Assembly (NCBI GenBank): GCA_027334165.1
Contig: DAHWXM010000001.1
Span: 1-49,439 of the forward strand
Direction of reading: 5' to 3'
Length of the DNA stretch: 49,439 nt
From: Microcaldota archaeon
GTDB taxonomy: Archaea; Micrarchaeota; Micrarchaeia; Micrarchaeales; CABMGC01
Shown here: positions 4,156 through 45,478 of the stretch, one piece after another
Numbering within the stretch: position 1 is the first letter of the stretch
Layout: each line of letters begins with the position of its first letter
Notes under the pieces: generated by a model
Databases searched by the model: none
The model's input: the letters and a program-made list of their open reading frames with translations, nothing else
Told to the model about the DNA's origin: nothing
Translations under genes and position numbers: made by a program

Positions 4156-4236
4156 CCTGATGACACATCCGCTCATCGGTGCCTCGCCCGATTGAGGTCG
4201 CCATTATTAAACTTTGCAACAAACAACTCTTTTGTT

Positions 4237-5211
4237 ATGGATGACAACACCGAGTCCCAATCCACAATTGAATGTCCGAAACTTTTGGGAAAAGTTTCAC
4301 CAAAAGCCCAGAGCACCATGGAGTACCTGATGACGTACGGCTGGGCCATACTGGCCATAGCCTTAGTCCTGGGCGTACTGTACTCTCTTGGCGTATTCAA
4401 TCCGGAGAACTTCGCACCGAAGGCGCAGCCCGGCTCGTGTCAGGTGTACAGACCGAACGGCCCGGAAACTACCTCATTCATAAATCTGGCTGGCTCCTGC
4501 ACGGATGAGATACCGCAGTATGTGGCTGTATTCAACGGCCCCACTGGCGGGTGCTGCGGCGGTTCGCATACAAACTACATAATCGTGGGCAACCAGCCCG
4601 TCTACAACGACATCAAAAGCAACATCACTGTCGTCGGATGGGTCATGCTGAATCCTACGACATCCTCCGACACGGGCAACTATAATTACATTGTCTCTAA
4701 CGATAGAGACTGCTGCGGCACTTATTACGGATATGCTCTCTGGATGGCAGGCACGGTGCCACATTTCAGGATATGGAACGGGTCTGAGCACAGTGTCGCT
4801 TCATCCATAAGCCTGCAGTCGGGAATCTGGTACCAGATAGCAGCGACATTCAATGGCTCGGATCTGAAAATATACGTTGATGGGAAATCCGAAGGCACTT
4901 CCGCATACTCCGGAGAGATAAGCCAACCAGCAAACTTCTCCATGAAGATCGGCATGCTCGGCGTCGGACCTCCGTACGGAATAAACGGTTACATGGCCAA
5001 CATTCAGATATACAACCGTTCATTCGGCGCCAATGCGGTGCAGTCCTTGTATGATGAAGGCATTGGCGGAAATCCCACATTCCTGAACAACCTTGTCGGA
5101 TGGTGGCCCCTTAATGGAAATGCGAACGACTCGAGCGGCAACAACGGCAATGGGACCACAGTAAATGTGGGCTTCTCAGGCTCATGGCAGAGTGGGTACA
5201 CGCCACCCTGA
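4237..5211 (+). CDS. Class III signal pilin-like protein with LamG domain (paralogue 1)
   Basis: Residues 24-55 hold a class III (type IV pilin-like) signal: a charged leader ending KA, then QSTMEYLMTYGWA and a long hydrophobic helix, so a pilin peptidase of the FlaK/EppA kind would be expected to cut before the Gln. Next comes a block shared with the other paralogues (NPENFAPKAQPGSCQVYRPNGP), then a laminin-G/concanavalin-like domain (SGIWYQIAATFNG, IYVDGKSEG, ANIQIYNRS) and the conserved end WWPLNGNANDSSGNNGNG. The ATG at 4237 is preferred to a TTG at 4192 because a TATA-like attattaaac lies near 4203. It is likely a surface filament subunit or adhesin that binds glycans. Confidence 0.85.
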   Translation: MDDNTESQSTIECPKLLGKVSPKAQSTMEYLMTYGWAILAIALVLGVLYSLGVFNPENFAPKAQPGSCQVYRPNGPETTSFINLAGSCTDEIPQYVAVFNGPTGGCCGGSHTNYIIVGNQPVYNDIKSNITVVGWVMLNPTTSSDTGNYNYIVSNDRDCCGTYYGYALWMAGTVPHFRIWNGSEHSVASSISLQSGIWYQIAATFNGSDLKIYVDGKSEGTSAYSGEISQPANFSMKIGMLGVGPPYGINGYMANIQIYNRSFGANAVQSLYDEGIGGNPTFLNNLVGWWPLNGNANDSSGNNGNGTTVNVGFSGSWQSGYTPP

Positions 5212-5215
5212 TGGG

Positions 5216-6127
5216 ATGAGTATGGGATCAAAACTCCAATCAGCAATGGAATATCTCATGACGTACGGCTGGGCCATACTCGTGATCGCGGTGGTGCTTG
5301 GCGTTCTGTATTCCTTGGGCGTATTCAATCCGCAGAACTTCGCACCGAAGGCGCAGCCCGGCTCGTGTCAGGTCTTTCGGCCGAATGGACCCGGGACGAA
5401 TTACGATCTGAATCTTGAGGGAACGTGCAATGGGGAATTGCCGCAGTATGTCGGCAGCTTTCAGAACCCCCAAGTTACGTGCACCTCCACTGGGCAGTAC
5501 ATAAAGGATACCTCGCCTACACCGTCAAGGATGGACTCGTTCACGCTCGCCTTCTGGGCATACCCGTTGCAGGGCCCTAATGCAGGAACTATTTTGCACT
5601 TGGACAGCAGCGGGTATGAAGCATGTGGGGGCAGCAATGGGGACTACTTTACCATGAATCCAGATGCATTGAACTTGCGGCTCTTCTACTCTGGCGGAAG
5701 CTACTGCGCCGCAATTCCAATAAGCTTGAAATCCCTATCCTTTTTTGCAGTTATCGTGAATGGCACATCTGACCAGTATGCGGTCTACGAGAACGGCGCG
5801 ACCATACAACCGAGTACCGCTATAGGCGGCAATCCCTCCCTCGGAACCATCACAGATATCAACATAGGGGATTTTGAGCCTAACTGCGGCGATACGTACA
5901 AAGGCTATTTGGCTGACGTGCAAGTTTACAACGCATCTCTATCCGCGAATGATATAAGATTCCTTTACATGGGGGGTGTAGGAGATGCACCGGCAACGCT
6001 ACAAAACCTTGTTGCATGGTACCCTCTGAACGGAAACGCAAACGACTACTCCGGAAATAACAACAACGCGGTATCATCTAACGTAATGTATACGGGGTCG
6101 TGGACTGGTCTGTATTCCGCACCATGA
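5216..6127 (+). CDS. Class III signal pilin-like protein with LamG domain (paralogue 2)
   Basis: This 303-residue paralogue follows the previous one after 4 bases, so both are probably made from one transcript. The class III motif is KLQSAMEYLMTYGWA, followed by the shared helix and NPQNFAPKAQPGSCQVFRPNGP. The central LamG-like region (about residues 100-240) differs strongly from paralogue 1 and carries extra cysteines, while the end (LVAWYPLNGNANDYSGNNNN) is conserved again. A second ATG lies two codons inside at 5222. Its short leader, just 8-9 residues before the Gln, is normal for pilin peptidase substrates. Role as in paralogue 1; ligand unknown. Confidence 0.85.
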   Translation: MSMGSKLQSAMEYLMTYGWAILVIAVVLGVLYSLGVFNPQNFAPKAQPGSCQVFRPNGPGTNYDLNLEGTCNGELPQYVGSFQNPQVTCTSTGQYIKDTSPTPSRMDSFTLAFWAYPLQGPNAGTILHLDSSGYEACGGSNGDYFTMNPDALNLRLFYSGGSYCAAIPISLKSLSFFAVIVNGTSDQYAVYENGATIQPSTAIGGNPSLGTITDINIGDFEPNCGDTYKGYLADVQVYNASLSANDIRFLYMGGVGDAPATLQNLVAWYPLNGNANDYSGNNNNAVSSNVMYTGSWTGLYSAP

Positions 6128-6146
6128 CTGCCACAACTTCGCAGGA

Positions 6147-6614
6147 TCATAAGAGCCGGGATACCTCCTCTACGGCATTCACGGTTTCCTGTGTCCTCTG
6201 GACAACAGTGAACTTGCCCTCTCCGAGAACTGTGTCAAGTCTTCTTCCGATCTCGAGCGTCTTCTTCATGGTGACGGTGTAGCTCTTCTCGCATTTCTTG
6301 AACTCGTCGAGGCGTATGAAGTACCATCCGTCACGTGAGATCTTCCAAGCAATGAATGTCGGAAAGGAGGTGTTTCTCTCCCATTCAAGGAGCTTCTCGA
6401 ACTGCTCGTAGTCAAGGCTCAGGCTGCTCTTGTCCCAAGCTTTGCACTCGATGCAGAATGCCTCCCTGTCCTTGAGCGCTATTATGTCTGGCCCAAGCGC
6501 GTTGACTCCGCTGCCAGCGCTCCTTATCACGGAATAGCCCCTGCCGTACAGCGTATTGAGCAGCTCCCTCTCGCTTCTCGCACCCTTGATGTACCTGTGC
6601 ACAGCGTCGCCCAT
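6147..6614 (-). CDS. hjc: Holliday junction resolvase Hjc
   Basis: This 155-residue nuclease resolves four-way DNA junctions in recombination and repair. It has the archaeal Hjc pattern: KGARSERELL (catalytic Glu15), then ALGPDII (Asp43) and FCIECKAW (Glu56, Lys58), matching the E-D-ExK metal-binding core, and a C-terminal GWYFIRLDEF strand typical of the family. The frame is open further upstream, but homology begins at the ATG at 6614, and a TATA-like element on this strand (tatttaata, about 6634-6642) places a leaderless start there. The C-terminal 40 residues extend beyond typical Hjc (about 120-135 residues). The gene lies opposite to and between two LamG pilin-like paralogues. Confidence 0.93.
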   Translation of the reverse strand: MGDAVHRYIKGARSERELLNTLYGRGYSVIRSAGSGVNALGPDIIALKDREAFCIECKAWDKSSLSLDYEQFEKLLEWERNTSFPTFIAWKISRDGWYFIRLDEFKKCEKSYTVTMKKTLEIGRRLDTVLGEGKFTVVQRTQETVNAVEEVSRLL

Positions 6615-6856
6615 ACTATCTTGGAATAATCCTATTAAATACCCCTGCCACGCCAACGTTCCAGCACCATAAACATCAGGAGCAGCATAACCCGGCATCC
6701 CGAGCAAATGTTCTGTGCACGGGTCACTATCCTTCGCATGCCGTGTCACAAGCCAAAGAGGATTTATAAAAATGACCTTTGCAATGCCACGCGTGTCCTG
6801 CCACACCTTGCGATCTAACGGTTATATGCTTTTTACAGGAATGCTATCTGAGATAA

Positions 6857-7768
6857 ATGCATCGGTTAGCCTTACAATCCGCGATGGAGTACCTGATGAC
6901 GTACGGCTGGGCAATACTCGTGATCGCAGTGGTGCTTGGCGTTCTGTATTCCTTGGGAGTATTCAATCCGGAGAACTTCGCACCGAAGGCGCAGCCGGGC
7001 TCGTGCCAGGTGTACAGGCCGAACGGCCCGGAAACCACCTCATTCATAAACTTAGTAGGCACATGCATCAACGAAGCGCCACAGTATGTTGCACAGTTCG
7101 ACAATCCCATAGGCGCTCCGTCCGGAGAGAGCACCTCGCACATAATCGCAAACAGCAATTTCAACGATCCTAACAGTCCGGGATTTACGATAACGCTGTG
7201 GTACGAAATCAACACACCGCAGGTCGGCACGCAATACATAGACAACATGGTATCAATACCTGGATACACGGGCCTAGAGTTCATAAGCGTCGGCAACAAC
7301 CAGGCACAGATATTCCTGCACCGATGCTACACGGACGTTGGCGGACTGACGGAGCCATACTCAACGTTCTTCAATGGCCAATGGCATTTCATAGGCGTAT
7401 CGTACAATCCCTCAAACAACACCTACCTGTTCATGCTCGATAACCTGTCCGGCACAGTTGTCGATTCCGGGCCGTTCGGCATGAGTTCTGGATCCATAAC
7501 AATAGGGGGTCCGAGTGGGTGCGTGTACGACGAACCTTTCAACGGAAAGCTATCCGACATACAAGTTTACAACACCACACTGGGCACAAACTCCATACGC
7601 GCCATATACAACGAAGGCATCGGTGGTGCGCCTATCCAGCTCCAGGGCCTGTCTGACTGGTGGCCTCTCAACGGAAATGCAAACGACTATTCAGGAAACA
7701 ACAACAACGGCGTTGCGACAAACGTCACGTTCACCGGGGCATGGGAGGGCGGTTACTCTGCCCCGTAG
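6857..7768 (+). CDS. Class III signal pilin-like protein with LamG domain (paralogue 3)
   Basis: This 303-residue protein is built like paralogues 1 and 2: a very short leader (MHRLAL) before QSAMEYLMTYGWA, the hydrophobic assembly helix, the conserved NPENFAPKAQPGSCQVYRPNGP block, a LamG-like domain (FTITLWYEI, WHFIGVSYNPSNN, LSDIQVYNTT) and the closing WWPLNGNANDYSGNNNNG. Its 5' block is nearly identical at DNA level to paralogue 1, down to the PNGPETTSFINL stretch. A TATA-like ggttatatgc near 6820-6830 gives it its own promoter. It is a likely extracellular filament or adhesin subunit. Confidence 0.86.
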   Translation: MHRLALQSAMEYLMTYGWAILVIAVVLGVLYSLGVFNPENFAPKAQPGSCQVYRPNGPETTSFINLVGTCINEAPQYVAQFDNPIGAPSGESTSHIIANSNFNDPNSPGFTITLWYEINTPQVGTQYIDNMVSIPGYTGLEFISVGNNQAQIFLHRCYTDVGGLTEPYSTFFNGQWHFIGVSYNPSNNTYLFMLDNLSGTVVDSGPFGMSSGSITIGGPSGCVYDEPFNGKLSDIQVYNTTLGTNSIRAIYNEGIGGAPIQLQGLSDWWPLNGNANDYSGNNNNGVATNVTFTGAWEGGYSAP

Positions 7769-9787: not shown

Positions 9788-11023
9788 TCACGATGTCGAG
9801 CTGACAATCCCGAACCCCGCAAATTCGCCCTTGGTGTACACCAGGAACCGCCCAAGCTCCTGAAACCTGCCGAAAGGCTCCACGCACATTGGCCTGTCCA
9901 GGGCTATCTCAGCATCAGCCGCATTAAGGTACAGTCTGTCCGTCCTGTGCATCGCCGACCCCGTGCTCGCGTCTATAACGCCGGTTATCCTTATTTTTGC
10001 ATGTACCCGTGCGCCGTTGATTGCCACATCCGCTTCGTTGATTCTGGAAAGTTCGGCCGAAAAGAACAGCCTGGCTCTGAACATACTGACAGAATCAACT
10101 TCGGTCCTCTTCTTGTAAATCACAACGCCATCGTCATCTTCGTACGCCGCAGCTGCGTCATCCTTCAATCCTATCGCTACATTGCCATGCACTGCGGTGC
10201 TCTTCCTTCTCCTGCTTCCTGCGAACAGCGAGGCCACAACAGAATAGTTTCCGCTCGGCAGCAGTTTCACGCTATCATTGACGTGAACGCTGCCGCTTGC
10301 AACGCGGCCAAGAAGCAGCGTCCTCTTCCCCTGTTGCATGCTCCCCTGTACCATTATCCTTAGCTCATCCATGGCATCGCCCGCACGCGATGCTGAGGGC
10401 TCTGCAAGGGCGTCAAGGAGCGTCGGTCCCTTGTACCATGTCATCTCGCGTGCCCTGCCCTTGAGGTTCTTGGACCTGTACGCGGAGATCGGTATAAACT
10501 CCGCGTCCCATTGTCCGGAAACCCTTTCTAAGAACGCATCGAGCTCCTTCCTAATGCCGTCAAAGCTAGATTTGGCATAACCAACGGTGTCCATCTTGTT
10601 TATTGCGACTATGAATCTGCGTATGCCAAGCATTGCGGCTATGAACGCATGTCTTTTTGTCTGCGCCGTTATCCTCTCACCTCTCCTGGCGGAAACCACC
10701 AGCAGAGCAACGTCTGCATACGACGCGCTGTTTATCATGTTCCTGACGAGCTCCTCGTGCCCAGGAACGTCTATGAACTCCAATATTGCGCCTTCGTGCT
10801 CAACCTGCGCCCTGGTGGAGTCTATTGTGAGCCCGCCATTCCTTTCCTCCTCAAAGCTGTCAAGCAGCATTGCCGGTTCGAATCTCCCGGCTACCGCGCT
10901 AGCCCCAATAGCCTCCTCAATCCGTTCCTTGGACGCACTGCCCGTGGCTATGAGAAGGTTGCCTATAAGTGTAGACTTCCCATGGTCTTTGTGTCCCAGA
11001 AGCACTATTCTCTTCGTAATCAC
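9788..11023 (-). CDS. cysN: Sulfate adenylyltransferase GTPase subunit CysN
   Basis: This 411-residue translation-factor-like GTPase has G1 GHKDHGKS (10-17), the switch I region with GLTIDS (64-69), G3 DVPGH (85-89), G4 NKMD (142-145) and two beta-barrel domains after about residue 220. This is the pattern of CysN, which couples GTP hydrolysis to APS formation by CysD. Length and the lack of a C-terminal kinase show that it is not fused to CysC. It lies 28 bases after cysD on the same strand, which separates it from EF-1A. The switch I wording departs from the usual GITIDV, which is modest family variation. It is likely cytoplasmic and cotranscribed with cysD. Confidence 0.88.
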   Translation of the reverse strand: MITKRIVLLGHKDHGKSTLIGNLLIATGSASKERIEEAIGASAVAGRFEPAMLLDSFEEERNGGLTIDSTRAQVEHEGAILEFIDVPGHEELVRNMINSASYADVALLVVSARRGERITAQTKRHAFIAAMLGIRRFIVAINKMDTVGYAKSSFDGIRKELDAFLERVSGQWDAEFIPISAYRSKNLKGRAREMTWYKGPTLLDALAEPSASRAGDAMDELRIMVQGSMQQGKRTLLLGRVASGSVHVNDSVKLLPSGNYSVVASLFAGSRRRKSTAVHGNVAIGLKDDAAAAYEDDDGVVIYKKRTEVDSVSMFRARLFFSAELSRINEADVAINGARVHAKIRITGVIDASTGSAMHRTDRLYLNAADAEIALDRPMCVEPFGRFQELGRFLVYTKGEFAGFGIVSSTS

Positions 11024-11051
11024 AGGCCAACACCCCAGTGCCGTTTGTTCG

Positions 11052-11834
11052 TTACATGTATCCGAGGGCCCTCAGTTTCTCCATTACGTACTTTTTCTCC
11101 TTGTCCTGTTCCCGTCCTGCCCTCTCCTCAGTGCGCGTATTTCCCAGCTCCCTTATTATTCCGTCTATGCTCTTCGCTCCGGATCTTATCGGAGAAGTGC
11201 AGTGCGTGCATCCAAGGCTCCTGTACCTTTTCCCTCCCGAAGAATAATAAAGCGGGTTAATCGGCACCTTGTTCCTTTTAGTATAGTTCCACACGTCTAT
11301 CTCGTTCCAATCGAGCAGCGGATGTATGCGCATGTGCCCCCCATCCTTCGCCTTCGAGTAGCCGTCCCACATTTCAGTCTTCTGGTTCTTGTAGTCCCAT
11401 CTGAAATTCCTGTCTCTCTCCGACACGTACCTCTCCTTGGCGCGTATCCCGTGCTCATCCCTTCTTATCGAAACTATTAGGGCATCGAAGCCGTGCTCGT
11501 CCATAAGCCTCTTCAGTGCCTCTGTCTTGTTCGATCCGCAGCACGAGAACCCGGACATCTCCGGTTTTATCTCGCTCTCCGCAATCAGCAGTTTGAGCCC
11601 CCATTTTCTTGCGACTTCGTCCCTGAACGCGTAACTCTCGGGGAAGTCTATTCCGTTGTCGATGTGTATAACCGGGAATGGCACCCTTCCAAGGAATGCC
11701 TTCCTGGCGACAGCCAGCATCGCTGTGCTGTCCTTGCCCATGCTCCAAAGCGCAGCTACGTTGTCAAACCGCGATAACGCCGCGCGAAGTATGTATGCGC
11801 TGCGCTCTTCGAGCTGTGCCAGATCCTGTTGCAT
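11052..11834 (-). CDS. cysD: Sulfate adenylyltransferase subunit CysD (PP-loop)
   Basis: CysD makes adenylyl sulfate (APS) and pyrophosphate from ATP and sulfate. The 260-residue protein has the PP-loop SMGKDS (31-36), FPVIHIDNGIDFPE, RRDEHGIRAKER, FRWDYKNQKTEMW, RIHPLLDWNEIDVWNY and a C-terminal RYRSLGCTHCTSPI with TRTEERAGR, all lining up with CysD and not with PAPS reductase CysH. It is shorter than bacterial CysD (about 300). It starts 7 bases after an unknown small gene and is followed by cysN. Together with galU and the SQD1 homologue nearby it suggests sulfate activation for a sulfonated sugar. Confidence 0.88.
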   Translation of the reverse strand: MQQDLAQLEERSAYILRAALSRFDNVAALWSMGKDSTAMLAVARKAFLGRVPFPVIHIDNGIDFPESYAFRDEVARKWGLKLLIAESEIKPEMSGFSCCGSNKTEALKRLMDEHGFDALIVSIRRDEHGIRAKERYVSERDRNFRWDYKNQKTEMWDGYSKAKDGGHMRIHPLLDWNEIDVWNYTKRNKVPINPLYYSSGGKRYRSLGCTHCTSPIRSGAKSIDGIIRELGNTRTEERAGREQDKEKKYVMEKLRALGYM

Positions 11835-11841
11835 ATTTGTG

Positions 11842-12126
11842 TCACCTAATAATTTTCAGGCCCTTGAGATAAGCCATGGCGCCGCGCAGCCTCTTCCCAT
11901 CCGTCTCGAATATCGGCACCGCGCATATGCGCCTGCCGCTTTCTGAGAAAAGTTCGGCGTATGAGCCGCGAAGGTCGTCACTGCCCTCGAACCTGTCCTT
12001 GGCATAAACTATTCTGTATCTGCGTATCCCACCGCGCTTCATTGCAGTGCAGAACGCCTTCCAATTCTTTGCGCACGGCTCCTTGCCAAGTCTCCCTGCA
12101 AGACCCTCCACGGCATCGTTTCCCAT
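11842..12126 (-). CDS. Small unknown protein leading the cysD-cysN operon
   Basis: This 94-residue basic protein is the first gene of the cysD-cysN operon, 7 bases before cysD. It has three cysteines (18, 26 and 68), a region RRYRIVYAKDRFEGSDDLRGSYAELF and a strand-like RRICAVPIF. I do not recognise a family. Tight linkage suggests a partner or regulator of sulfate activation, but that rests on position alone. The region to galU (12127-12214) must hold divergent promoters. Confidence 0.65.
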   Translation of the reverse strand: MGNDAVEGLAGRLGKEPCAKNWKAFCTAMKRGGIRRYRIVYAKDRFEGSDDLRGSYAELFSESGRRICAVPIFETDGKRLRGAMAYLKGLKIIR

Positions 12127-12214
12127 GAAAGCACCAATTATCTCCGGATTAAACTATTGATGTGAACCATTAATAAGCGTGCGCAACGATGTAGAGTACA
12201 AGACGCGTGGTTCC

Positions 12215-12997
12215 ATGAAACTCACAAAAGCGGTAATAACCGCAGCGGGAAGGGGATCGAGGATGTGGGAGATAACCAAGGTGCTTCCAAAGGCGCTGAT
12301 ACCTGTTTACGGCGTTTCGAATCGCGCGAAGGTGCTTATACCCATTATAGACCTTTCGATGGGCTCGCTAAGCAAGGCGGGTATCAAGGAATTCTGCATA
12401 GTTGCTGGGGACAGGCACGACGTCCTCGAGGAACACCTGAAGGGCAGCACGCTTGGCAAGGTGTCTTTCGAATCGCAGCGGGAGCCAAAAGGATTCGGTG
12501 CCGCTGTGCTTGAGGCAGAGAAATTTGCCGGAAAGGATCCATTCGTCCTGAACACCGATGACATAGCCATGACATTGGGCTATGACGTGATAGTCAAGTT
12601 GTTCGAGAAGCTCGATGCAGATGCCGTGTTCTTCATGCGCGAGGTTGGAAATCCAAAACGGTATGGGGTAGTAGAAGGCACGGAGGAGGATGGCTTCATG
12701 GGGCACAGGGTATTCAGGGTAACCGGGGTTGAGGAAAAGCCCGACGACCCGAAGAGCAACATGGTGATAGTCGGCCTTTATGCGTTCTCCCACAGGATAT
12801 TCAAGGCCCTTAAGGATTCGCAACACTCCGGTCCGCTTGAGCTGACAGCCGGTATAGCGCGCCTTATAAAGGCGGGTGCGAACGTGCACGGCATACTCCT
12901 AACCGATGAGGTACCGCTCAATGTCGGCGACCCAGACAGCTACTTCAAAGCCCTTTCATACACATATGAGAAGGCCGAAAAGGCGCTCAAGCTGTAA
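12215..12997 (+). CDS. galU: UTP-glucose-1-phosphate uridylyltransferase (GalU type)
   Basis: This nucleotidyltransferase of 260 residues would make UDP-glucose from UTP and glucose-1-phosphate. It carries ITAAGRGSRMWEITKVLPKALIPV at residues 8-31 (nucleotide loop plus catalytic Lys), QREPKGFGAAVLEAE (uridine-binding region), FVLNTDDI (metal-binding Asp) and the closing VGDPDSYFKAL typical of GalU. The ATG at 12215 is preferred because the family starts about there; a GTG at 12179 would add 12 residues. It is divergent from the cysD operon and close to an SQD1 homologue that needs UDP-glucose. Another sugar-nucleotide specificity cannot be excluded. Confidence 0.82.
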   Translation: MKLTKAVITAAGRGSRMWEITKVLPKALIPVYGVSNRAKVLIPIIDLSMGSLSKAGIKEFCIVAGDRHDVLEEHLKGSTLGKVSFESQREPKGFGAAVLEAEKFAGKDPFVLNTDDIAMTLGYDVIVKLFEKLDADAVFFMREVGNPKRYGVVEGTEEDGFMGHRVFRVTGVEEKPDDPKSNMVIVGLYAFSHRIFKALKDSQHSGPLELTAGIARLIKAGANVHGILLTDEVPLNVGDPDSYFKALSYTYEKAEKALKL

Positions 12998-13011
12998 CTC
13001 ATGCATCGTGT

Positions 13012-13773
13012 TCATGCCACTACAATATAGTTGACCACGAACGCGGCAGCAAAGCCAGCTAGTATTCCAAGATACGTGAGCCACACCAGCCCGTCACGTT
13101 CCCTCTTCTCCCTGCTCATGCTCTTGTTAATGTTGATGTGGAACAGCACGAGCACTACGTAGAGTATTGCTGCACTTGCCAGTGCGTCGAAGAGCACTAT
13201 GAACGCGTTGGAGAAGAAGTTTATGCCTATCAGCGTGCCTATTACAGTGGGAAGCCCTCCGAGTAGGAACGCACCGACCAGGAAGCGCTTCTCCATCTTT
13301 CCGGTGCCTACGAACGGTACGGCTATCGGAAAACCCTCCGTGACGTTCTGCATAGAGAATCCTATTATGGAGACTACATACACCGGAAGGAGGCCCGCCG
13401 CTCCTGCGGAACCGAAAACCAGCCCCTCGGTAAGGTTCTGGAACCCTATTCCGATGGCTGCAAGCATTGATGTGCGCTTCGGATTCTCTTCCGGATCCCT
13501 GCTCCCCTTAGGGAGAACGAAGAAAGAGAACGCTAGCACAAAAGCGGCTATGAACAGCAATTCCATGGGGTCCGTTATCGTGTTGCTGCCGAATATGCCT
13601 GAGACATCACCGTATATGTCCACCATAAGGAACACGAGTATGCCTATCGCGAATGAGTTGTACAACAACATGCGCTTCAGATCCATACCCCTGGTGAATA
13701 CTACCGGCATGGAGAGGAACACTGAGAGCCCGATTACAAAAGAGAGAGCTATGGTTACGTAGTCGCTTATCAT
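13012..13773 (-). CDS. ZIP-family metal transporter with Gln-for-His substitutions
   Basis: This 253-residue integral membrane protein has about eight hydrophobic segments. The two signature helices of ZIP (zinc/iron permease) proteins are present as GIGFQNLTEGLVFG (residues 108-121) and GFSMQNVTEGFPIA (138-151), keeping the N-x-x-E-G cores but with Gln where the metal-binding His normally stands in both. Metal specificity may therefore differ or be lost. A clear TATA-like element on this strand (ttatttaaatta, about 13807-13819) gives a short leader before the ATG at 13773. It is convergent with galU (14 bases between the genes). Confidence 0.82.
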   Translation of the reverse strand: MISDYVTIALSFVIGLSVFLSMPVVFTRGMDLKRMLLYNSFAIGILVFLMVDIYGDVSGIFGSNTITDPMELLFIAAFVLAFSFFVLPKGSRDPEENPKRTSMLAAIGIGFQNLTEGLVFGSAGAAGLLPVYVVSIIGFSMQNVTEGFPIAVPFVGTGKMEKRFLVGAFLLGGLPTVIGTLIGINFFSNAFIVLFDALASAAILYVVLVLFHININKSMSREKRERDGLVWLTYLGILAGFAAAFVVNYIVVA

Positions 13774-13885
13774 GCAATCCTTTTATAACCGAGTTATACT
13801 GCACGCTAATTTAAATAACAGACACCGTAGATGCCACAGCCGCGGCTCCCTATCCTGTATTGGGATGCCACGCGTCCCTCCTTAG

Positions 13886-15046
13886 TCAATCCTTCCATCT
13901 GACTTCCGGCATTATTGCATCCTTGTACTCCGCGAGCCTGCTCTTATGCTTCTGCAAGTCCTTGAGTATGACCCCCATCTCGTCCCGTATGTTCCTCGTG
14001 GGCGACTTCAGGCCGAGCGCCGGGAGTATGTCGTGCACCGGCTTATAGTAGTGTTCGTTCGCTTCGACCCTCGGATTGTCAACCTCACCTATCTCGACGC
14101 TCATGCCGTTCTTTGACGCAACTTCCTTCGCTATGAGCGCGAGCTCTCTGACGCTGTACACCTCGGTGAACTGGTTTACAACCCTGTACTCACCGTCATT
14201 CGGCCTGTTCTCTATAAGCAACCGAAGCGACTCCATGCTGTCCTCCAGGGACAGGAATGCCCTGGTCTGTCCTCCCTTTCCGTACTGTGTCAGTGGCATG
14301 CCAAGCACCGATTCCACGCAGTATCTGTTGAATACAGTTCCCCATACTCCATCAAAGTCGAACCTCGTGAAGAGCCTGTCATCGGTTATTTCCTTCGTTC
14401 TTGTGCCGTACACCGGACCCTGCATTATGTCCGTGGTGGTTATGCCCCACACCTTGTTCGCAAACAGGAGATTGTTGGTGTCATGCACCTTTGACCAGTG
14501 GTACCACGAGCCCGCCCATTTCGGCACCACTATCCTGTCGCTCTTTCCCCCTATCTGCGCATCAACAAATGCCGATTCCGGTATGTCAAAGTTTGGAGTT
14601 CCATACTCTCCCATCGTGCCCATCTTTACCACGTGCACCTTCGGGTTTGCCTTCTTGACCGCGTATATCAGATTAAGCGTTCCTGACAGGTTGTTCCTCA
14701 TCGTGAAGTTCGCGTGCTTGACGTCTATCATCGAGTAAGGCGCTGATCGCTGCTCTGCAAAATGGACAACCGTATCGGGCTTGAATTTCCTTATCGCCTT
14801 GTTGAGCACCGAGTACTTTGTTATGTCACCTATTATGAAATCGAGGTCCTTTCCCATTATGTCGCGGACGGCGTGCACTCTCTCCTCGGGACTCGGTATT
14901 GGCAGGGCGCTCGCGGATCCGACCTCCTCCACTGCCTTCCTGGTATAGAGATTATCTATCCCTGCTACCTCATGCCCCCTTGCCAGAAGCCTGAGTGCAA
15001 GCGGCCATCCCAGGTATCCGTCCATTCCAAGAATCAAGACTCTCAT
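13886..15046 (-). CDS. sqd1: UDP-sulfoquinovose synthase (SQD1/Agl3 type)
   Basis: The 386-residue protein is an extended SDR enzyme closely resembling plant SQD1 and Sulfolobus Agl3, which join UDP-glucose and sulfite to give UDP-sulfoquinovose. Visible signatures are the NAD loop GMDGYLGW (7-14), VVHFAEQRSAPYSM (93-106), KMGTMGEYGTPN (141-152, with the active-site Thr144), YHWSK (Tyr182, Lys186), YGKGGQTRAFLSLEDS and NPRVEANEHYY. The SAPYSM and GGQTR stretches are specific to this family within the SDRs. Neighbouring galU and cysD/cysN supply related steps. The product probably goes into surface N-glycans, as Agl3's does; a sulfolipid is the alternative. Confidence 0.92.
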   Translation of the reverse strand: MRVLILGMDGYLGWPLALRLLARGHEVAGIDNLYTRKAVEEVGSASALPIPSPEERVHAVRDIMGKDLDFIIGDITKYSVLNKAIRKFKPDTVVHFAEQRSAPYSMIDVKHANFTMRNNLSGTLNLIYAVKKANPKVHVVKMGTMGEYGTPNFDIPESAFVDAQIGGKSDRIVVPKWAGSWYHWSKVHDTNNLLFANKVWGITTTDIMQGPVYGTRTKEITDDRLFTRFDFDGVWGTVFNRYCVESVLGMPLTQYGKGGQTRAFLSLEDSMESLRLLIENRPNDGEYRVVNQFTEVYSVRELALIAKEVASKNGMSVEIGEVDNPRVEANEHYYKPVHDILPALGLKSPTRNIRDEMGVILKDLQKHKSRLAEYKDAIMPEVRWKD

Positions 15047-15123
15047 TTTAACACCGTAAGAACCGTATCTCTATGCAAGAAGCAATTTTTAATGGTTTGC
15101 TACAGACACCGCGGAGATGCACA

Positions 15124-15870
15124 TCATCTGCCGTCCTTCACGATCACAGCGGCGTATTCCCCATCGGTGTGGTAGTTCCTGGAGAGGAAGAATTTCTTGA
15201 CGCGCCATCCTGTGCCTTCAAGCAGTTCTCTCATCTCATCTCTGGATACGTAAAGATAGTCGAACCAATCAGTCGAATACTGCATGAACCTGATCCTCAG
15301 TTTTAGTTGCCCTCCCATCCTGCCTTTCTTAATATTTTCTTTGTGATATCTAAAGTGGACAGGATTATCTGTTATGTACGGGTCTCTGGTTTCTGTCACT
15401 ATCAACCCTGTAGCTGTGGTAATTCTGTACATCTGTTTCAGCAACCTTCTCGCTTTCTCCAAGCTGCCAAAAAGTCCAAAGTTGTTCCCCAGCATCACTA
15501 CGCTTCCAAATGTTCCTTCCTTGAAGGATCCAATCCCTTCGATTGGCATAATCTTCACATCCTTCACTCCACGCTGCTTGCAGACGCGTATTGACAATGG
15601 GGAGTTGTCTATGCCGAAGTATGGTTGCCCTTTTTCCTGCATGTACCTTCCAACCCTTCCCGCGCCGCAGCCTATGTCCAGCACTCTGCCATTTGCGTGC
15701 TTTATTGCATCCTTATCGTGCCTGTCCCAATCCTTGTACGTTGCAAAAGCTTCTTTGAAGCCTGCATCAACGTTGACGTAGCCATCGCTTCGTTCAACAA
15801 CGCTGAAGCTGGTAAGTCCTTTCATGTAATTCCAATAGGTGTGCCCATACGCATCCTTGTTTGAGTCCAT
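15124..15870 (-). CDS. Class I SAM-dependent methyltransferase
   Basis: This 248-residue enzyme has the Rossmann motif I VLDIGCGAGRVGRYMQ (about 63-78), motif II PYFGIDNSPLSIRVC and a post-II segment FGSVVMLGNNFGLFG, typical of small-molecule class I methyltransferases. The substrate is not evident. The position just upstream of the UDP-sulfoquinovose synthase on the same strand (77 bases) suggests sugar or glycan methylation, but this is inference. A TATA-like element on this strand (tttaaatac reversed, about 15908-15919) predicts a start close to the ATG at 15870. Confidence 0.85.
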   Translation of the reverse strand: MDSNKDAYGHTYWNYMKGLTSFSVVERSDGYVNVDAGFKEAFATYKDWDRHDKDAIKHANGRVLDIGCGAGRVGRYMQEKGQPYFGIDNSPLSIRVCKQRGVKDVKIMPIEGIGSFKEGTFGSVVMLGNNFGLFGSLEKARRLLKQMYRITTATGLIVTETRDPYITDNPVHFRYHKENIKKGRMGGQLKLRIRFMQYSTDWFDYLYVSRDEMRELLEGTGWRVKKFFLSRNYHTDGEYAAVIVKDGR

Positions 15871-16206: not shown

Positions 16207-17613
16207 TCATTCGTAAGGGATCAATTTTACGGGTTCTATTTTTTTGAGACCAACCAGTAGACGGTATGCCCTTGAATATGTGTTGTCAAAACGTCTGTAG
16301 CACAATTCACCAGTCAGAACGTCCGTCACCACCAATGTTTTAATTACGTTACCAGGGAGCTCTTCATTTATTCCGTAAGCAATCTTATTTAGTTCTCCAT
16401 CTTCAAAAAGAGGCAGAAATACTATTGAACCTACCTGCCCTCCAATGTTTCCAAATACGCTGTACCTATTTACTATGTCTCCGTATTGAATTTCATCGAG
16501 AAGTAGCCTGTATCTATTCTCTTTTATACTTTTAAAATCTATATCTATTATCCAGATTACTCCTATATATTTTACCGGCAAGCGTGACAGCGATATCGTT
16601 GATCTTATAATAATGCCTTTTTTATGCAGCTCATTATAAAGATACCTGGAAGCCCCTTCGGTAAAAGAGTGCATTTCATCTATTGCAGTAAAACCTATTG
16701 CACTGTTCGAATTTAATTCCTTAATTAGTAGGAATTCCCTATGCCTAATCTGATTGTCCTTGGGTTTTTGTGCTTCTTTACTCCGATGCCAAATCCTCTC
16801 TTTAAGGATGTTTTCTATGAACGACTCCTTTATCGGCATATAATGATACGTTGTTGCAAACTCTGTCAAAGTGATATATGCCCTATATTTACCCCACGCA
16901 TCTTTTAATCTAAATTTTAAAAGGTCGTCCTGTGCTTTAAGTGCTCCTTCATCCACAAAATACATTATAACGTCATATTCTCCCTTGGTCATAACTGCAA
17001 ACTGGATCCTGTCCTCCCCTTTCACCAGTTCTTTTAATTCTTCTGCCGTTGGGGCTTGACCATCAAATTTAATTAGAAGTATGTATGGGGTGTATCCTAA
17101 TTTCTCGATGTCGACCTCCAGAATGTACTTTATGCCCAGCTTATCCTCTAGGTACTTTATCCTGGAGTAAACAGTCTGCTCGCTCAGCCCAACTATCTTT
17201 GACATGCGTGATATCGGCATGCGCGCGTTCATGCTGAGCGCCATAAGTATTTTAAGGTCCGTGTCCTTTAGATTCGGTTTTTCCTGCTGTACCGACGATA
17301 TTATCTCCGAACGCTTTTTCTCCTCTTCTGTCTTGGTGTGCCAGACAACTTCGCCGCCATGCTCTGCTATGAGCTCACTTGCCCTGTCGATGTCGAGGGT
17401 CCCAGGCGCCTTCTTCTTTACATACTCCCCCTGTCCAGTTATCCGGCCAAGATACTCGGACTTGAGTTTTCGCTTGTGGGTTTCCTTTATCCACAGACCC
17501 CTATCCCTGTACACATAGTACCTGCCATTGATCCTTCTCAGTGTCACGTTAAAGGGGTACTCCCTCTTGACCTGCGCGTATGCCGCCGAAATCTCCTTCG
17601 GAAGGTGCTTCAT
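16207..17613 (-). CDS. Tandem Lrp/AsnC-like transcription regulator with extra N-terminal domain
   Basis: This 468-residue protein has an N-terminal basic domain (NGRYYVYRDRGLWIKE, SEYLGRITGQGEYVKKK) recalling the small DNA-binding starts of some transposases. An Lrp-type helix-turn-helix follows (LKDTDLKILMALSMNARMPI, SRMSKIVGLSEQTVYSRIKY) with a first ligand-binding-like half, then a second winged-helix/Lrp-like half from about residue 300 (REFLLIKELNSNSAIGF). Standard Lrp proteins are about 150 residues, so this is a duplicated, extended form. The ATG at 17613 is chosen over 17625 because the TATA-like element near 17642 predicts transcription from about 17616. Base composition is more A+T-rich than its neighbours. 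Targets are unknown. Confidence 0.75.
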   Translation of the reverse strand: MKHLPKEISAAYAQVKREYPFNVTLRRINGRYYVYRDRGLWIKETHKRKLKSEYLGRITGQGEYVKKKAPGTLDIDRASELIAEHGGEVVWHTKTEEEKKRSEIISSVQQEKPNLKDTDLKILMALSMNARMPISRMSKIVGLSEQTVYSRIKYLEDKLGIKYILEVDIEKLGYTPYILLIKFDGQAPTAEELKELVKGEDRIQFAVMTKGEYDVIMYFVDEGALKAQDDLLKFRLKDAWGKYRAYITLTEFATTYHYMPIKESFIENILKERIWHRSKEAQKPKDNQIRHREFLLIKELNSNSAIGFTAIDEMHSFTEGASRYLYNELHKKGIIIRSTISLSRLPVKYIGVIWIIDIDFKSIKENRYRLLLDEIQYGDIVNRYSVFGNIGGQVGSIVFLPLFEDGELNKIAYGINEELPGNVIKTLVVTDVLTGELCYRRFDNTYSRAYRLLVGLKKIEPVKLIPYE

Positions 17614-17720
17614 GTTACATAACATAACATTAAAGCTTTAAAATATTTGTTATAACTGCGCTCTTTAACATAGAAAAATATTGAATTTATTAATATTTTA
17701 GCTTTAAATTTATGTTATAT
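17614..17720 (-). promoter_or_regulatory. Structured promoter of the Lrp-like regulator with repeated motif
   Basis: A TATA-like atattttaaag (reverse strand, centred near 17642) precedes the regulator. The 9-mer taacataac (17620-17628) lies between the TATA box and the start codon and is repeated exactly at 16049-16057 beyond the other end of the gene; an inverted near-copy, ttatgttat, lies at 17710-17718. The 9-mer agctttaaa is also repeated directly (17634-17642 and 17700-17708). The arrangement suggests operators for autoregulation, which is inference. Confidence 0.5.
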
Positions 17721-19706: not shown

Positions 19707-20711
19707 GTGCCAACTACCATAAGATCGAGGGCTCCGTTCAGAGTCAGCTTCGCAGGTGGATTCACAGATCTGCGCGAGTACTACGAGCCTTACGGCGGAA
19801 GCGTGATAGAGGCCGCGATAAACTTCTACTCCTACGTGACGATACGCGAGCGCCATGACGACGCGATAACGGTGAGGCACGACCTGCTGAACATAGCGGA
19901 ACGCGGCTCGCTTGGGAAGCTGGAGAGCATAAGCCCTTTCTACTCGAAGATCATAGAGCACTTTTCTCCGAAGAGCGGCTTTGACATGATACTAAACATG
20001 GATCTAGGCTACGGTTCCGGACTCGGCTCTTCATCGGCATCGATCGTTGCGCTGATAGGCGCATTCAACGAATGGATGGGGCATGGCATGAACAACTACC
20101 AGATAGCAGAGCTGGCCCATAACATGGAACGCAATGCACTGAGCATTTACGCAGGGAAGCAGGATCCGTACTCCAGCACGTTCGGCGGCTTCAACTACAT
20201 CGAGTTCTCTAAGGATGAGGTCGTGGTCAATAGCATGAAACTGGACGAGGACGTACTGCGCGAGCTGCAGTTCCGTACCATACTCACTAACACGGGGATA
20301 AGCAGGCACTCTGGAAACTACGTCAAGGCGCTGATAGACAGGATAAACGCGAGTGACGCCGCGGTGCTGGAAAACCTGGGACACATCCGGGAGTCCGCGA
20401 AAGAATTGAAGGACAGGATATACAAGGGAAACCTTGCAGAAATCGGAAGCCTGTTGGACAAGGAGTGGGGTTACAAGCGCAAGCTAATAGACGGAATGTC
20501 AAACAGCAAGGTGGACGATATATTCACGATAGCAAGCGCCAACGGGGCCGAGGGCGGAAAGCTTCTCGGTGGCGGTGGAGGAGGGCACATACTGTTCATA
20601 GTGAATGACGCAAGCAAGTACCGGCTGATGCGCGCCATGTCTCAGCACGGCCTGAACGTGTACACCCCTGACTTTGCGGCTCCTGGGGTTTACGCTTGGC
20701 ATGCGCACTGA
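19707..20711 (+). CDS. hddA: GHMP kinase, D-glycero-D-manno-heptose-7-phosphate kinase type
   Basis: The 334-residue sugar kinase has the HddA/Fst14-like layout: RAPFRVSFAGGFTDLREYY at the start, the GHMP ATP loop LGYGSGLGSSSASIVALIGAF (about 94-114), YAGKQDPYSSTFGGFNYIEF, and the C-terminal KLLGGGGGGHILF. The GTG start at 19707 is supported by ggtga at 19696-19700. Enzymes of this group phosphorylate heptose-7-phosphate at C1 for nucleotide-activated heptose used in surface glycans; other sugar kinases share the fold, so the substrate is likely but not certain. A glycosyltransferase follows. Confidence 0.82.
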   Translation: MPTTIRSRAPFRVSFAGGFTDLREYYEPYGGSVIEAAINFYSYVTIRERHDDAITVRHDLLNIAERGSLGKLESISPFYSKIIEHFSPKSGFDMILNMDLGYGSGLGSSSASIVALIGAFNEWMGHGMNNYQIAELAHNMERNALSIYAGKQDPYSSTFGGFNYIEFSKDEVVVNSMKLDEDVLRELQFRTILTNTGISRHSGNYVKALIDRINASDAAVLENLGHIRESAKELKDRIYKGNLAEIGSLLDKEWGYKRKLIDGMSNSKVDDIFTIASANGAEGGKLLGGGGGGHILFIVNDASKYRLMRAMSQHGLNVYTPDFAAPGVYAWHAH

Positions 20712-20808: not shown

Positions 20809-21876
20809 ATGGAGTCCGGTTCCTTCAAGGTTGTCGGAGGCGCAGCCATAGACACTTACATGATGTACAACGGCCTGCAGCATGCCCACAAGTACCAGGC
20901 GGACTTGTACGAGGACACTTCCAAGCTGGGCGTTACCGGAGCCAAGACCGTCTCGCGCGAGGACGCGCTTTCCAAGAGTTATGACATAGTCATATTGAAC
21001 TCGATACGCGATGTTCCGCTGGCATTGCTGTACCGGGAAAGGCACCCTCTCGCAAAATTCATGTACATAGACCGCGGCAACGTCATAACTAATTTCAGGA
21101 AGGCGGGTATGAAGCGCCTGCTTCCAAAGATGATGCTACGCTACAAGTACCTGCTGCAGCTCAAGACATTTCTGAACCAGTACGTTGCGATAACCGCGGA
21201 ACAGTACGAGATGGCAAAGGATTTCTTTGACACCGTAAAAACAGAGCTGCATTACATAAACATCGCGCCCCACAAGGAATTCAGAAGCCTCGGGCTCGAC
21301 AGGAGCGACGGTTGCGCCATAGTCGTCGGCAGGCTTGATGAGAGGCAGAAGAAGATGTCATTCCTCTTTCGAGGCATCACGCGTGTGGTTTCAGAGCATC
21401 CGGAGCTCAAGAATCAACTACTGCTCAGGGTGGTTGGGACCGGCCCCGACGAGAACAGATACAAGTCCATGGTCAATTCGTTGGGCATATCCACGAACGT
21501 GGTATTCGATGGATTTGTCCGTGGCGAGCCGCTCGTCACAAAGTACAACACCGCGCGGTTTCTTGTGTCAACTTCCGAATGGGAGAGCCCTGGAAGAAGT
21601 TTCCTGGAGGCTATGGCATGCGCCCTGCCAGTGCTGCTGAACACTAAGAACAATGCGATACTTAATTACTCGCCGGTGGAGAATGTGGTGAGGGACGGAT
21701 ACAATGGCGTGGTGTACGCTTACAATGACCTGGAGGACTTCGCAGAGAAATTCTATACGTTGTGTCACAGGCCGGCACTGGCCCGTAAACTTGGCGAACG
21801 CGCCCATTCATACATAAAGAAATTCAGTTTCGAGCACACACTTAAGGAGTATGAATCTATACTGGACACCATGTAA
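20809..21876 (+). CDS. Glycosyltransferase family 4-like
   Basis: The protein of about 355 residues has the two-Rossmann GT-B fold. The C-terminal half carries CAIVVGRLDERQKKMSFLFRGI, LLLRVVGTGPDENRY, TNVVFDGFV and the E-x7-E signature ESPGRSFLEAMACALPVLL. It probably transfers a sugar to a lipid carrier or glycan at the membrane. The start is uncertain: the ATG at 20809 gives MESGSFKVVGG, but the frame IKRILF directly upstream looks like native N-terminus, and a ggtgag site (20782-20787) sits in front of an ATC at 20791. It follows the sugar kinase gene. Confidence 0.85.
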   Translation: MESGSFKVVGGAAIDTYMMYNGLQHAHKYQADLYEDTSKLGVTGAKTVSREDALSKSYDIVILNSIRDVPLALLYRERHPLAKFMYIDRGNVITNFRKAGMKRLLPKMMLRYKYLLQLKTFLNQYVAITAEQYEMAKDFFDTVKTELHYINIAPHKEFRSLGLDRSDGCAIVVGRLDERQKKMSFLFRGITRVVSEHPELKNQLLLRVVGTGPDENRYKSMVNSLGISTNVVFDGFVRGEPLVTKYNTARFLVSTSEWESPGRSFLEAMACALPVLLNTKNNAILNYSPVENVVRDGYNGVVYAYNDLEDFAEKFYTLCHRPALARKLGERAHSYIKKFSFEHTLKEYESILDTM

Positions 21877-38966: not shown

Positions 38967-39028
38967 TTCCTCTCCTATGCGGGTTCTAAATGACCCATAT
39001 TCTTAAACCCTTCCTGTCAATCAGTATC

Positions 39029-40015
39029 ATGCTCAGGGGAATCCATCGGTCGGGTAAGAGACATCACAAGAAGATAGTCGAATCCCAGAGCACGCTCGAG
39101 TATTTCATAACGTACGGCTGGGCAATACTTGTGATTGCGATAGTCCTGGCCATTCTCTTCAGCTTAAATTTTTTCTCGCCTAACATACGTGCGCTCCCTG
39201 GTTCCTGCCAAGTGATAAGGCCTCTTGGCCCTTACAATCCCACAGACATGGCCATCCAAGGAGAATGCACCGGCCTGTTGCCCGAGTATGCATCCTCATT
39301 TGGCACACTGTCGGTCGGAACCTACGGCAGTGGAAAGGGATACGGTGGCGTCTCGTACCCAAAGTACGTCCTGCTTCCTAACCTCACGATAAACGGTGCC
39401 TTCAGTAGCGGTCTCCCGACAGGCGCGCCGGGATTCACCATAACCGCATGGATATACTGGTACGGCACAAACAAGGCGCCATGCCAGGGGATCTTCGGCA
39501 GTAACCCAAGCCCCAGCTCCGGAATAGCGCTGTACGGCTACGGTGGAAACAGCGGTGCGTGCGGAGTCATCTGGATAAACGGTTCCTACGTAAAATGGGG
39601 AGCGTCAAACAACTCGTTCGCAAGGAACCGATGGGTCTTCGTGTCAGCTACGTACAACCAGAGCAACGGAACAGCTGCGGTGTACGCGAATAACATCCTT
39701 TTCTCAGCGGCCACGCAGTCGCCGCACTCCTTTCAGACCACGAATTCCTTCTCCCTTGGAGCAACTATATTCCCCAACGGTGACGTATACCCATTCAATG
39801 GCACGCTTGCAAACGTGCAACTGTACAACACGCCTCTGACAAGCCAGGAGCTCGCTGCACTCTACAATGAAGGCATTGGTGGCGCCCCGGTCAGGCTTCA
39901 GAACCTGGTAGGCTGGTGGCCCATGAACGGCAATGCAAACGACTACAGCGGCAACAACAACGACGGCATCGCAACCAACGTGTCGTTCTACTACTCGTAT
40001 CCGACTGTGTCCTAG
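39029..40015 (+). CDS. Class III signal pilin-like protein with LamG domain (paralogue 4)
   Basis: This 328-residue member is the most distant of the four. Its leader is long and basic (HRSGKRHHKKIVES) before QSTLEYFITYGWA; the helix AILVIAIVLAILFSLNFF and LPGSCQVIRPLGP follow. The LamG-like domain contains FTITAWIYWYG, RWVFVSATYNQSNG and LANVQLYNTP, and the closing GWWPMNGNANDYSGNNNDG is conserved. The ATG at 39029 fits a TATA-like attcttaaacc near 38999; an ATG at 38990 would add 13 residues. It is the last high-G+C gene before the A+T-rich island. Confidence 0.83.
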   Translation: MLRGIHRSGKRHHKKIVESQSTLEYFITYGWAILVIAIVLAILFSLNFFSPNIRALPGSCQVIRPLGPYNPTDMAIQGECTGLLPEYASSFGTLSVGTYGSGKGYGGVSYPKYVLLPNLTINGAFSSGLPTGAPGFTITAWIYWYGTNKAPCQGIFGSNPSPSSGIALYGYGGNSGACGVIWINGSYVKWGASNNSFARNRWVFVSATYNQSNGTAAVYANNILFSAATQSPHSFQTTNSFSLGATIFPNGDVYPFNGTLANVQLYNTPLTSQELAALYNEGIGGAPVRLQNLVGWWPMNGNANDYSGNNNDGIATNVSFYYSYPTVS

Positions 40016-40215
40016 GGTTTCACGAAATCTGAGTGCGAGTTGGCATCATTACGACTTATACGAACACAATTGTAAGTAATAGAGAAGTCATGCCAAATGG
40101 CCAGCGTGTTTTTGGTACCACCATAAGACACAGTCAGGATCTAAAAGCGTTGTAGGATAAATCCTTTTCTGTCGGAATATTCATATTTTTGTCGGATTAA
40201 TACCTAATCGTGAAA

Positions 40216-40602
40216 ATGTACGCCGAACTGTTGGAGGAACTGAAGAAGATATCCAAGACTAAAGTGAAGACGCACAGGTCAGGTCCTACAGGCATAGGGA
40301 AGACTTTGTAGGACCTATTGGACATTAAGGAGAACAATATACCAATGTCTGACGGAGAGGATATAGAGCTCAAATCAGCCAGAAAGAACTCCACGAGCAT
40401 GCTGACTCTTTTTACAAAGTCGCCACTTCCAAAGGGCTCTAACACCTTACTCTTGCAGAATTATGGATACCCTTCTGAGGATAAGACTCACAACAGGTTG
40501 GAAACGACACTCAGTGCTGTAAAGTTCAATACCATTAAGGGCAAATCAGGGCTTAAGGTAGAATTAACAGACGATAAGATAAAGCCGAAGAATGGAAAGT
40601 AG
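40216..40602 (+). pseudogene. Decayed MvaI/BcnI-type restriction endonuclease
   Basis: The frame from ATG 40216 reads VKTHRSGPTGIGKTL, then TAG (40309-40311), then DLLDIKENNIP, IELKSARK and SMLTLFTKSPLPKGSNT, then TLSAVKFNTIKGKSGLKVEL. This is the MvaI/BcnI restriction-enzyme pattern, in which GKTL is normally followed by Glu-Asp, so a single base change (GAG to TAG) explains the stop. The ELK catalytic segment is intact. The frame ends early at 40602. No matching DNA methyltransferase is in the window. The upstream fragment is 31 codons. Confidence 0.75.
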
Positions 40603-40802
40603 ACGTCGTAGTACTCACCAGAGATGGATTTAGTTTTACAAATGCAATACCTTTTGTAATGCTTTTTACGATAAGAGATCCAGATGGAATGGCTCCAGTG
40701 TATAATGATGTTGTAAATGAATTGAGAATAAATGGCATACTCTCTTCTGAAATAACTTTGAGAACGCCTGTCAGAGAAAAGCTAAGGGGAGTTAACACAT
40801 AG
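40603..40802 (+). pseudogene. Frame-shifted downstream fragment, unidentified
   Basis: Just where the restriction-enzyme frame ends, a second frame (shifted by one base) runs open to TAG 40800-40802, reading EEWKVDVVVLTRDGFSFTN then LFTIRDPDGMAPVYNDV and ending LRTPVREKLRGVNT. It has no good start codon, so it is either the frame-shifted C-terminus of the same enzyme or the remnant of another gene. I could not recognise it as part of the MvaI family. Confidence 0.45.
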
Positions 40803-40804
40803 TA

Positions 40805-41743: not shown

Positions 41744-41838
41744 GATTGGCTATGATTTGTTAAATTGATATGCCTGTCTGCAAATTCGCCATTCTGTAGG
41801 TAAATTCAGATTTTACCGACAAAGCAGGATCTAAAGAG

Positions 41839-42339: not shown

Positions 42340-42481
42340 CCTAACACTTATAATATATTATTATAAAAAAAAGTATAAATATATATGCTTGGCACACGTG
42401 CACATAACTCTCAGAATCAATGATAAGTTCTCATGGCCTATTTATAACTTTGGATTCCTACTATCATTAAAACGTGGGAAA

Positions 42482-42886: not shown

Positions 42887-42898
42887 TTTTCGGAAGAA

Positions 42899-44413: not shown

Positions 44414-44551
44414 GATAGCGTTGGCGTATCATGATCGATAAAAATTCTTAAGAATCCGATAGAGCAGTAGATCAGTTACTAAAATGGTATCGTAATCAGA
44501 AGATAGAGAAAGGTAGAGATAATCTAATGTTTAAAGCTATTAGAGGTTTAA

Positions 44552-44827: not shown

Positions 44828-44862
44828 CAGTTTTTGCATTCAAATTATGTATGGAGGAGTAT

Positions 44863-45456: not shown

Positions 45457-45478
45457 TAAACAACCTGTGAGTGTTTGA

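Follow-up and report, generated by a model that had tools for sequence, protein, structure and literature searches.

In a 49,439-nucleotide stretch of a micrarchaeal genome (contig DAHWXM010000001.1; the whole stretch is called the window below), genes for a UDP-sulfoquinovose synthase of the SQD1/Agl3 type and for a CysDN-type ATP sulfurylase lie close together between positions 9788 and 15870. We propose that this region is a surface-glycan gene island in which CysDN stands beside SQD1 as its source of sulfite, by way of adenosine 5'-phosphosulfate (APS), and we give this reading a probability of about 0.5. As judged by homology, the products of orf94, cysD and cysN would convert sulfate to APS, and SQD1 would make UDP-sulfoquinovose from UDP-glucose and sulfite. 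Glycosyltransferases and AglB would then place the sulfoquinovose on glycoproteins or lipids; we looked for an oligosaccharyltransferase in the window genome and found an AglB/STT3-type homologue. Between the two halves of the pathway, an APS-reducing enzyme of no known type would supply the sulfite. APS may also have a second use in glycan decoration, independent of sulfoquinovose, because most relatives hold CysDN without SQD1.

The window genome (G000) is a draft, 83% complete. Its recovered relatives are Micrarchaeota, in agreement with an initial annotation, made from the DNA letters alone, that had called the source a probable micrarchaeon. Our comparative sample comprised 301 genomes of the phylum Micrarchaeota, including the window's own family (f1, 79 genomes, of which 19 are high-quality, at least 90% complete, and 16 carry SQD1) and a sister family (f2). 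The genes that the initial annotation had placed in this region are long open frames with family matches; those at the core of the cluster, together with orf94, which it had overlooked upstream of cysD, are as follows.

9788..11023, minus strand: cysN, EF-Tu-superfamily GTPase, predicted subunit of the CysDN ATP sulfurylase (PF00009)
11052..11834, minus strand: cysD, predicted PP-loop catalytic subunit of ATP sulfurylase, four-cysteine type (NF003587)
11199..11210, minus strand: codons of CysD Cys209-Cys212 (GCTHCT), which align with the CxxC ligands in APS reductases
11538..11543, minus strand: codons of CysD Cys98-Cys99, which align with the CC ligands in APS reductases
11842..12126, minus strand: orf94, conserved protein of 94 amino acids, first gene of the orf94-cysD-cysN cassette
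13886..15046, minus strand: SQD1/Agl3, predicted UDP-sulfoquinovose synthase (NF041015)
14489..14503, minus strand: codons of SQD1 Tyr182-Lys186, the YxxxK catalytic motif (Agl3 mutagenesis, PMC4388408)

The SQD1/Agl3 orthologue

The strong SQD1/Agl3 homologue of the initial annotation proved to be a true orthologue by equivalog score, by comparison with solved structures and by the residues it keeps. The protein passed the equivalog model NF041015 with 644.1 bits over residues 1-385, against a cut-off of 575, and its best match in the PDB was SQD1 (1qrr/1i24, E ~1e-105). Its cofactor motif GxxGxxG falls at G7, G10 and G13 (MRVLILGMDGYLGW). Mutagenesis identified residues important for Agl3 (Saci0423) of Sulfolobus acidocaldarius, including a Glu-Tyr pair (PMC4388408). 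At Agl3 numbering, the window protein has H95, T144, M145, E147, Y148, S180, Y182 and K186; that is, it keeps the Thr (T144), the YxxxK motif (Y182, K186) and the Glu-Tyr pair (E147, Y148) required in Agl3. These comparisons support the view that the window SQD1 is a genuine UDP-sulfoquinovose synthase orthologue.

The two proteins thus belong to the same enzyme family, with the same catalytic residues at the same numbering (PMC4388408), but the window gene, that of a predicted synthase, has a nucleotidyltransferase gene and those of a CysDN ATP sulfurylase as neighbours, in a DPANN archaeon with a reduced genome. With Arabidopsis SQD1 (1qrr, 1i24) it shares a full-length alignment and the Thr/YxxxK triad; the Arabidopsis protein is the plant sulfolipid enzyme, whereas the context of the window gene suggests an archaeal glycan or glycolipid. 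The initial annotation had held that the archaeon makes a sulfonated surface glycan itself. Sulfoquinovose synthesis of its own is likely, but a sulfite supply of its own is unproven.

The orf94-CysD-CysN cassette

CysD passed NF003587 (285 bits against a cut-off of 195) and missed the narrower TIGR02039 (215 against 397 bits). It has the PP-loop SMGKDS at residues 31-36, and CysD of Pseudomonas syringae (1zun_A) was the best PDB match both in a profile search (E=2e-71) and in a structure search with the AlphaFold2 model (E=3e-18). With the CysDN of P. syringae (1zun) and E. coli, the window proteins have in common the PP-loop, the RRDE..RAKER and C-terminal regions, an adjacent CysN and the best fold match, but the window CysD is shorter and lacks the loop before the C-terminal part. 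The E. coli protein has, of the four cysteines discussed below, only the first of the CxxC pair.

The naming of CysN in the initial annotation holds by adjacency and by tree placement, but not by the curated models: the CysN models gave 204-211 bits, under all of their cut-offs (336-715), and an EF-1alpha model scored slightly higher, at 228 bits. The possibility that the gene is EF-1alpha is countered by a separate, canonical EF-1alpha on contig 11 of the same genome (G000:C11, 669 bits) and by a tree in which the window CysN groups with the CysNs of other CysDN loci, apart from EF-1alpha, with a branch support of 92/100. A gene of the CysN cluster is present in nearly all surveyed CysD loci; in Micrarchaeota, CysN evolves fast.

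The core unit is orf94-cysD-cysN, which recurs without SQD1 in most relatives; orf94 lies upstream of cysD in most Micrarchaeota loci. A confident AlphaFold2 model of its product (pLDDT 87) gave no fold match in a structure search of the PDB. Taken together, homology supports the cassette as a CysDN-type ATP sulfurylase that would convert sulfate to APS.

In G119 an open reading frame for a LAGLIDADG homing endonuclease lies between cysD and cysN (L033:10305-11126), and in one distant micrarchaeal relative a HIT-domain gene has the same position (L047:8465-8908); some HIT proteins hydrolyse APS. A micrarchaeal orf94-cysD-cysN cassette, with a CysD identity of 68%, was also found in a contig titled Thermoplasmatales archaeon (L122, JACWAH010000024.1), which reflects either a mislabelled genome or a transfer to a host lineage.

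Linkage of SQD1 to the cassette

CysD was found in 132 of the 301 genomes and SQD1 in 27. Where a genome holds both (18 genomes), the two genes lie 0.9 to about 4 kb apart in 12 cases, against an expectation of about 1% per genome of such size. All 12 belong to f1 and span seven genera, which are all the f1 genera that have both genes. The nominal probability of this linkage is 1e-19, or 1e-11 by genus, figures that overstate independence because the genomes are related. Relative to cysD, SQD1 lies on the upstream side in the window and G175 and on the downstream side in most other genomes; G122 and G156 have it inverted. These rearranged orders suggest selection on proximity, the neighbourhood having been kept or re-formed. 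The association of CysDN with SQD1 is non-random.

The step from APS to sulfite

The initial annotation had pointed out that the step from APS to sulfite is missing from the region, and our searches extended this absence to the window genome and to f1. No reductase for APS or 3'-phosphoadenosine 5'-phosphosulfate (PAPS), whether CysH or AprA, was found in either. In the window genome, CysD was the sole match to PF01507. A PF01507 match was present in all 19 high-quality f1 genomes; across f1, nearly every strong match was to this CysD, and the weak ones, at about 30 bits, were mostly to proteins some 515 amino acids long. AprA gave nothing over cut-off in the 79 f1 genomes, and its weak matches, N-terminal only, look like other flavin adenine dinucleotide proteins. 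A search for sulfite reductase in the same 79 genomes found none, and one for APS kinase in f1 gave only weak matches of P-loop type, none above 23 bits, which suggests that cysteine synthesis and PAPS-dependent sulfation by known routes are not likely sinks for the APS. The family differs in this from Pseudomonas and E. coli, as no CysC, CysH or sulfite reductase accompanies its CysDN in our searches.

Several results weigh against CysDN as the sulfite source of SQD1. One is this absence of an APS reductase of any known type from the window genome and all 79 genomes of its family. Another is that CysD is present in 67 of the 79 f1 genomes and SQD1 only in 16; with CysDN near-universal and SQD1 rare, CysDN would serve more than sulfoquinovose. 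In f2, five genomes have both genes, but in none are they closely linked: the distance is 24 kb in one and 226 kb in another, each time within a single contig, and in the remaining three the genes are on different contigs. Furthermore, three nearly complete f2 genomes (G257, G258 and G260) hold SQD1 without any PF01507 protein, CysD included, so that their sulfite must come from elsewhere, for example from the host or the environment. The linkage in f1 could then reflect common use in glycan building and not a flux from APS to sulfite. The initial annotation had gone on to say that the glycan is made from external sulfate with no reliance on a host. This is unsupported, since the gap is family-wide and the same three genomes are without sulfate activation, and host independence for all SQD1 carriers is unlikely.

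Possible separate branches for APS and sulfite

We regard it as possible, if tentatively so, that the two enzymes work in parallel branches: APS from CysDN would go to sulfate esters on the glycan, SQD1 would take sulfite from the host or the environment, and the genes would cluster only through their shared role in glycans. This agrees with the many relatives that have CysDN without SQD1 and with the three f2 genomes that have SQD1 without CysDN. The sulfate would possibly be esterified by alkaline-phosphatase-superfamily enzymes encoded nearby in relatives. Genes of this superfamily (PF01663, PF00884) recur near CysDN, both in Micrarchaeota and in other phyla. A phosphodiesterase-family gene of PF01663 was found in 21 mapped micrarchaeal loci; among the 80 CysD loci of our neighbourhood survey across phyla, 42 have its cluster and 26 have sulfatase-family genes. 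The PF01663 neighbours (for example L082:15798-17303, L049:1933-2634 and L187:8042-8749) are candidate APS-using or glycan-modifying enzymes. TauE transporter genes were found in nine CysDN loci, and together these recurrent neighbours suggest that the general role of CysDN is glycan decoration with sulfate or sulfonate. In a planctomycete locus (L178), the gene after that of a four-cysteine CysD encodes a CysN-CysC fusion; a related CysD on a plasmid precedes CysNC, and a sulfotransferase gene is nearby. The plasmid CysD, from Skermanella, is without the cysteines and was rejected as proof that a four-cysteine CysD can feed an APS kinase; the planctomycete locus is the valid case.

However, no APS kinase was found in f1, and we know of no APS-dependent sulfotransferase, which also counts against separate branches. 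Three genomes in which SQD1 is linked to CysDN, namely the window genome, G175 and G147, lack the PF01663 gene, and its absence from the window genome rules out an alkaline-phosphatase-superfamily gene as the missing partner there. A search of the window genome for a TauE-type transporter found none.

A four-cysteine CysD

In APS reductases, the cysteines of a CC and a CxxC motif hold a 4Fe-4S cluster. The window CysD has CC at residues 98-99 and GCTHCT around residues 209-212, and when its profile is aligned with solved structures, the cysteines coincide exactly with those in the ECC and GCxxCT of the APS reductase 7lhr. Cys98, Cys99 and Cys209 are invariant in 31 of 31 aligned Micrarchaeota, and Cys212, hence the full set, is present in 30. 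The four cysteines presumably bind an iron-sulfur cluster and not zinc. We also surveyed CysD across phyla in 84,980 species genomes, with search patterns that left out the four cluster-type cysteines, and 70 of 73 CysDs had all four. Their holders include Omnitrophota, Planctomycetota, Deltaproteobacteria, Dehalococcoidia, Methanoperedens, Methanothrix, ANME-1 (a group of anaerobic methanotrophic archaea, ANME), Woesearchaeota and others. The four-cysteine CysD is thus widespread in anaerobes, and the idea of a micrarchaeal speciality was discarded. In a CysD tree rooted with CysH, the CysDs of E. coli type, which lack the cluster cysteines, branch inside the four-cysteine set (support 89/98), although the long CysH branches make the position of the root uncertain. 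Most simply, the cluster-bearing CysD would be the older form, and the cluster would have been lost in E. coli-type CysD. The ANME archaea have a CysDN too (PMC6286981), and ANME-1 and Methanoperedens members fall in the same four-cysteine set. Their genomes also encode APS/PAPS reductases and sulfite reductases (PMC6286981), unlike the window family, in which neither was found.

These cysteines raise the question of whether the missing enzyme could be CysD: an ATP sulfurylase of ancestral, iron-sulfur type would make APS and also reduce it to sulfite, alone or with a partner thiol protein, and CysDN by itself would feed SQD1. CysD is the only PF01507 protein of the window genome and is linked to SQD1, and its nearly invariant cysteines match the cluster ligands of assimilatory APS reductases (2goy, the Mycobacterium enzyme 7lhr and the plasmid CysH of Thermus and Cytobacillus), with the CC and GCxxCT motifs at matching positions. 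Yet we consider such a double function improbable. Unlike those reductases, the window CysD has no C-terminal ECGxH nucleophile, and no other cysteine is conserved in the Micrarchaeota alignment; the tail reads VMEKLRALGYM. Because this catalytic cysteine is absent, a direct reductase role is unlikely. In fold and overall sequence the protein is a CysD, and it scores far below cut-off on APS-reductase models. The planctomycete fusion to APS kinase, together with the absent cysteine, fits an ATP sulfurylase better than a reductase, and most f1 genomes with a four-cysteine CysD have no SQD1. That a conventional APS/PAPS reductase lies in the missing 17% of the window genome is very improbable, since the same absence holds across the 79 f1 genomes, with AprA never over cut-off and the PF01507 matches of 19 of 19 high-quality genomes being almost all CysD plus the weak ones.

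The CysD tail has a counterpart nearby. Just upstream of the cassette, many genomes have a small gene (L109:5454-5684, L051:10689-10910 and others) whose product of 70-110 amino acids has no Pfam match and is, in our reading, MetJ/Arc/CopG-like. The tail xLxxLGY ends 73 of 73 CysDs, 30 of 31 of these small proteins and 1 of 561 other neighbouring open reading frames, a count that excludes the CysN and phosphatase-superfamily clusters. It may serve both proteins as a docking tail, through which a regulator would compete with CysD. A search among solved structures gave nothing significant for this tail, and the window has no MetJ/Arc/CopG-like gene next to orf94. An LxxLGY tail also ends a few sulfatase- or phosphodiesterase-family proteins near CysDN and one PAPS-reductase-family protein of Haloarcula (L146:7976-9415, L149:7482-9074, L182:7750-9195 and L219:199-1179).

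Other genes of the window

The remaining genes of the region and its flanks are listed here.

12179..12997, plus strand: RmlA/GalU/AglF-type sugar-1-phosphate nucleotidyltransferase, likely ATG start at 12215 (PF00483, 114 bits)
13012..13773, minus strand: ZIP/ZupT-like membrane transporter (weak ZupT match, E=9.5e-7)
15124..15870, minus strand: S-adenosylmethionine-dependent methyltransferase, upstream of SQD1 (PF08241, E=2e-9)
19707..20711, plus strand: GHMP sugar kinase, HddA-like, flanking (NF049969, 227 bits against a cut-off of 600)
20809..21876, plus strand: GT4-family glycosyltransferase, flanking (PF00534, E=6e-22)

A nucleotidyltransferase does lie where the initial annotation had put GalU, on the strand opposite to its neighbours, but the name GalU did not hold. 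RmlA, AglF and Arch_GlmU models scored 110-118 bits against 90.9 for GalU, all below cut-off (326.8 for the GalU equivalog), and the top PDB matches were thymidylyltransferases. The enzyme is a putative supplier of nucleotide sugar, and a homologue convergent to SQD1 occurs in many SQD1 loci. The ZIP-like transporter gene between it and SQD1, overlooked earlier, is confined to the window among the loci mapped and is no conserved member of the cluster. Further on, the sugar kinase is HddA-like, but its proposed heptose substrate found no support, as the equivalog cut-off was missed. The expected glycosyltransferase is there as a GT4-family gene, with homologues in 21 of the mapped loci.

Upstream of the methyltransferase, an AT-rich pocket (GC 0.40) at 16207-17625 encodes a 472-amino-acid HTH_AsnC-type protein that could be a regulator of the cluster. 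Four paralogous surface proteins, three of them close together, are encoded at 4192-7768 and 38990-40015; we read them as having a pilin-like start (QSxxEYLxTYGWAI) and a LamG-like body. The stretch 40001-48000, with several large open reading frames, is AT-rich (GC 0.33-0.42 against about 0.52 elsewhere) and is a possible island.

Significance

DPANN archaea are thought to take most metabolites from their hosts. A 2025 survey reported sat-type genes in genomes of DPANN and of the candidate phyla radiation, with incomplete sulfur pathways (PMC12153355), and an S-layer is present in a cultured micrarchaeon (PMC8975820). We found no report of a UDP-sulfoquinovose synthase in Micrarchaeota in the open-access literature, which is weak evidence as subscription papers were mostly outside the search, and nothing on an iron-sulfur CysD in the titles and abstracts of open-access papers. 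The widespread four-cysteine CysD bears on the divergence of ATP sulfurylase and APS reductase, and if it did reduce APS, sulfate could reach a sulfonated sugar by a short route that needs no separate APS reductase. The gap in the pathway is now defined as the step from APS to sulfite, which is testable with purified proteins. A sulfate-activation cassette near-universal in this family, and coupled in some members to sulfoquinovose synthesis, suggests that these archaea may build a sulfonated or sulfated host-contacting surface of their own.

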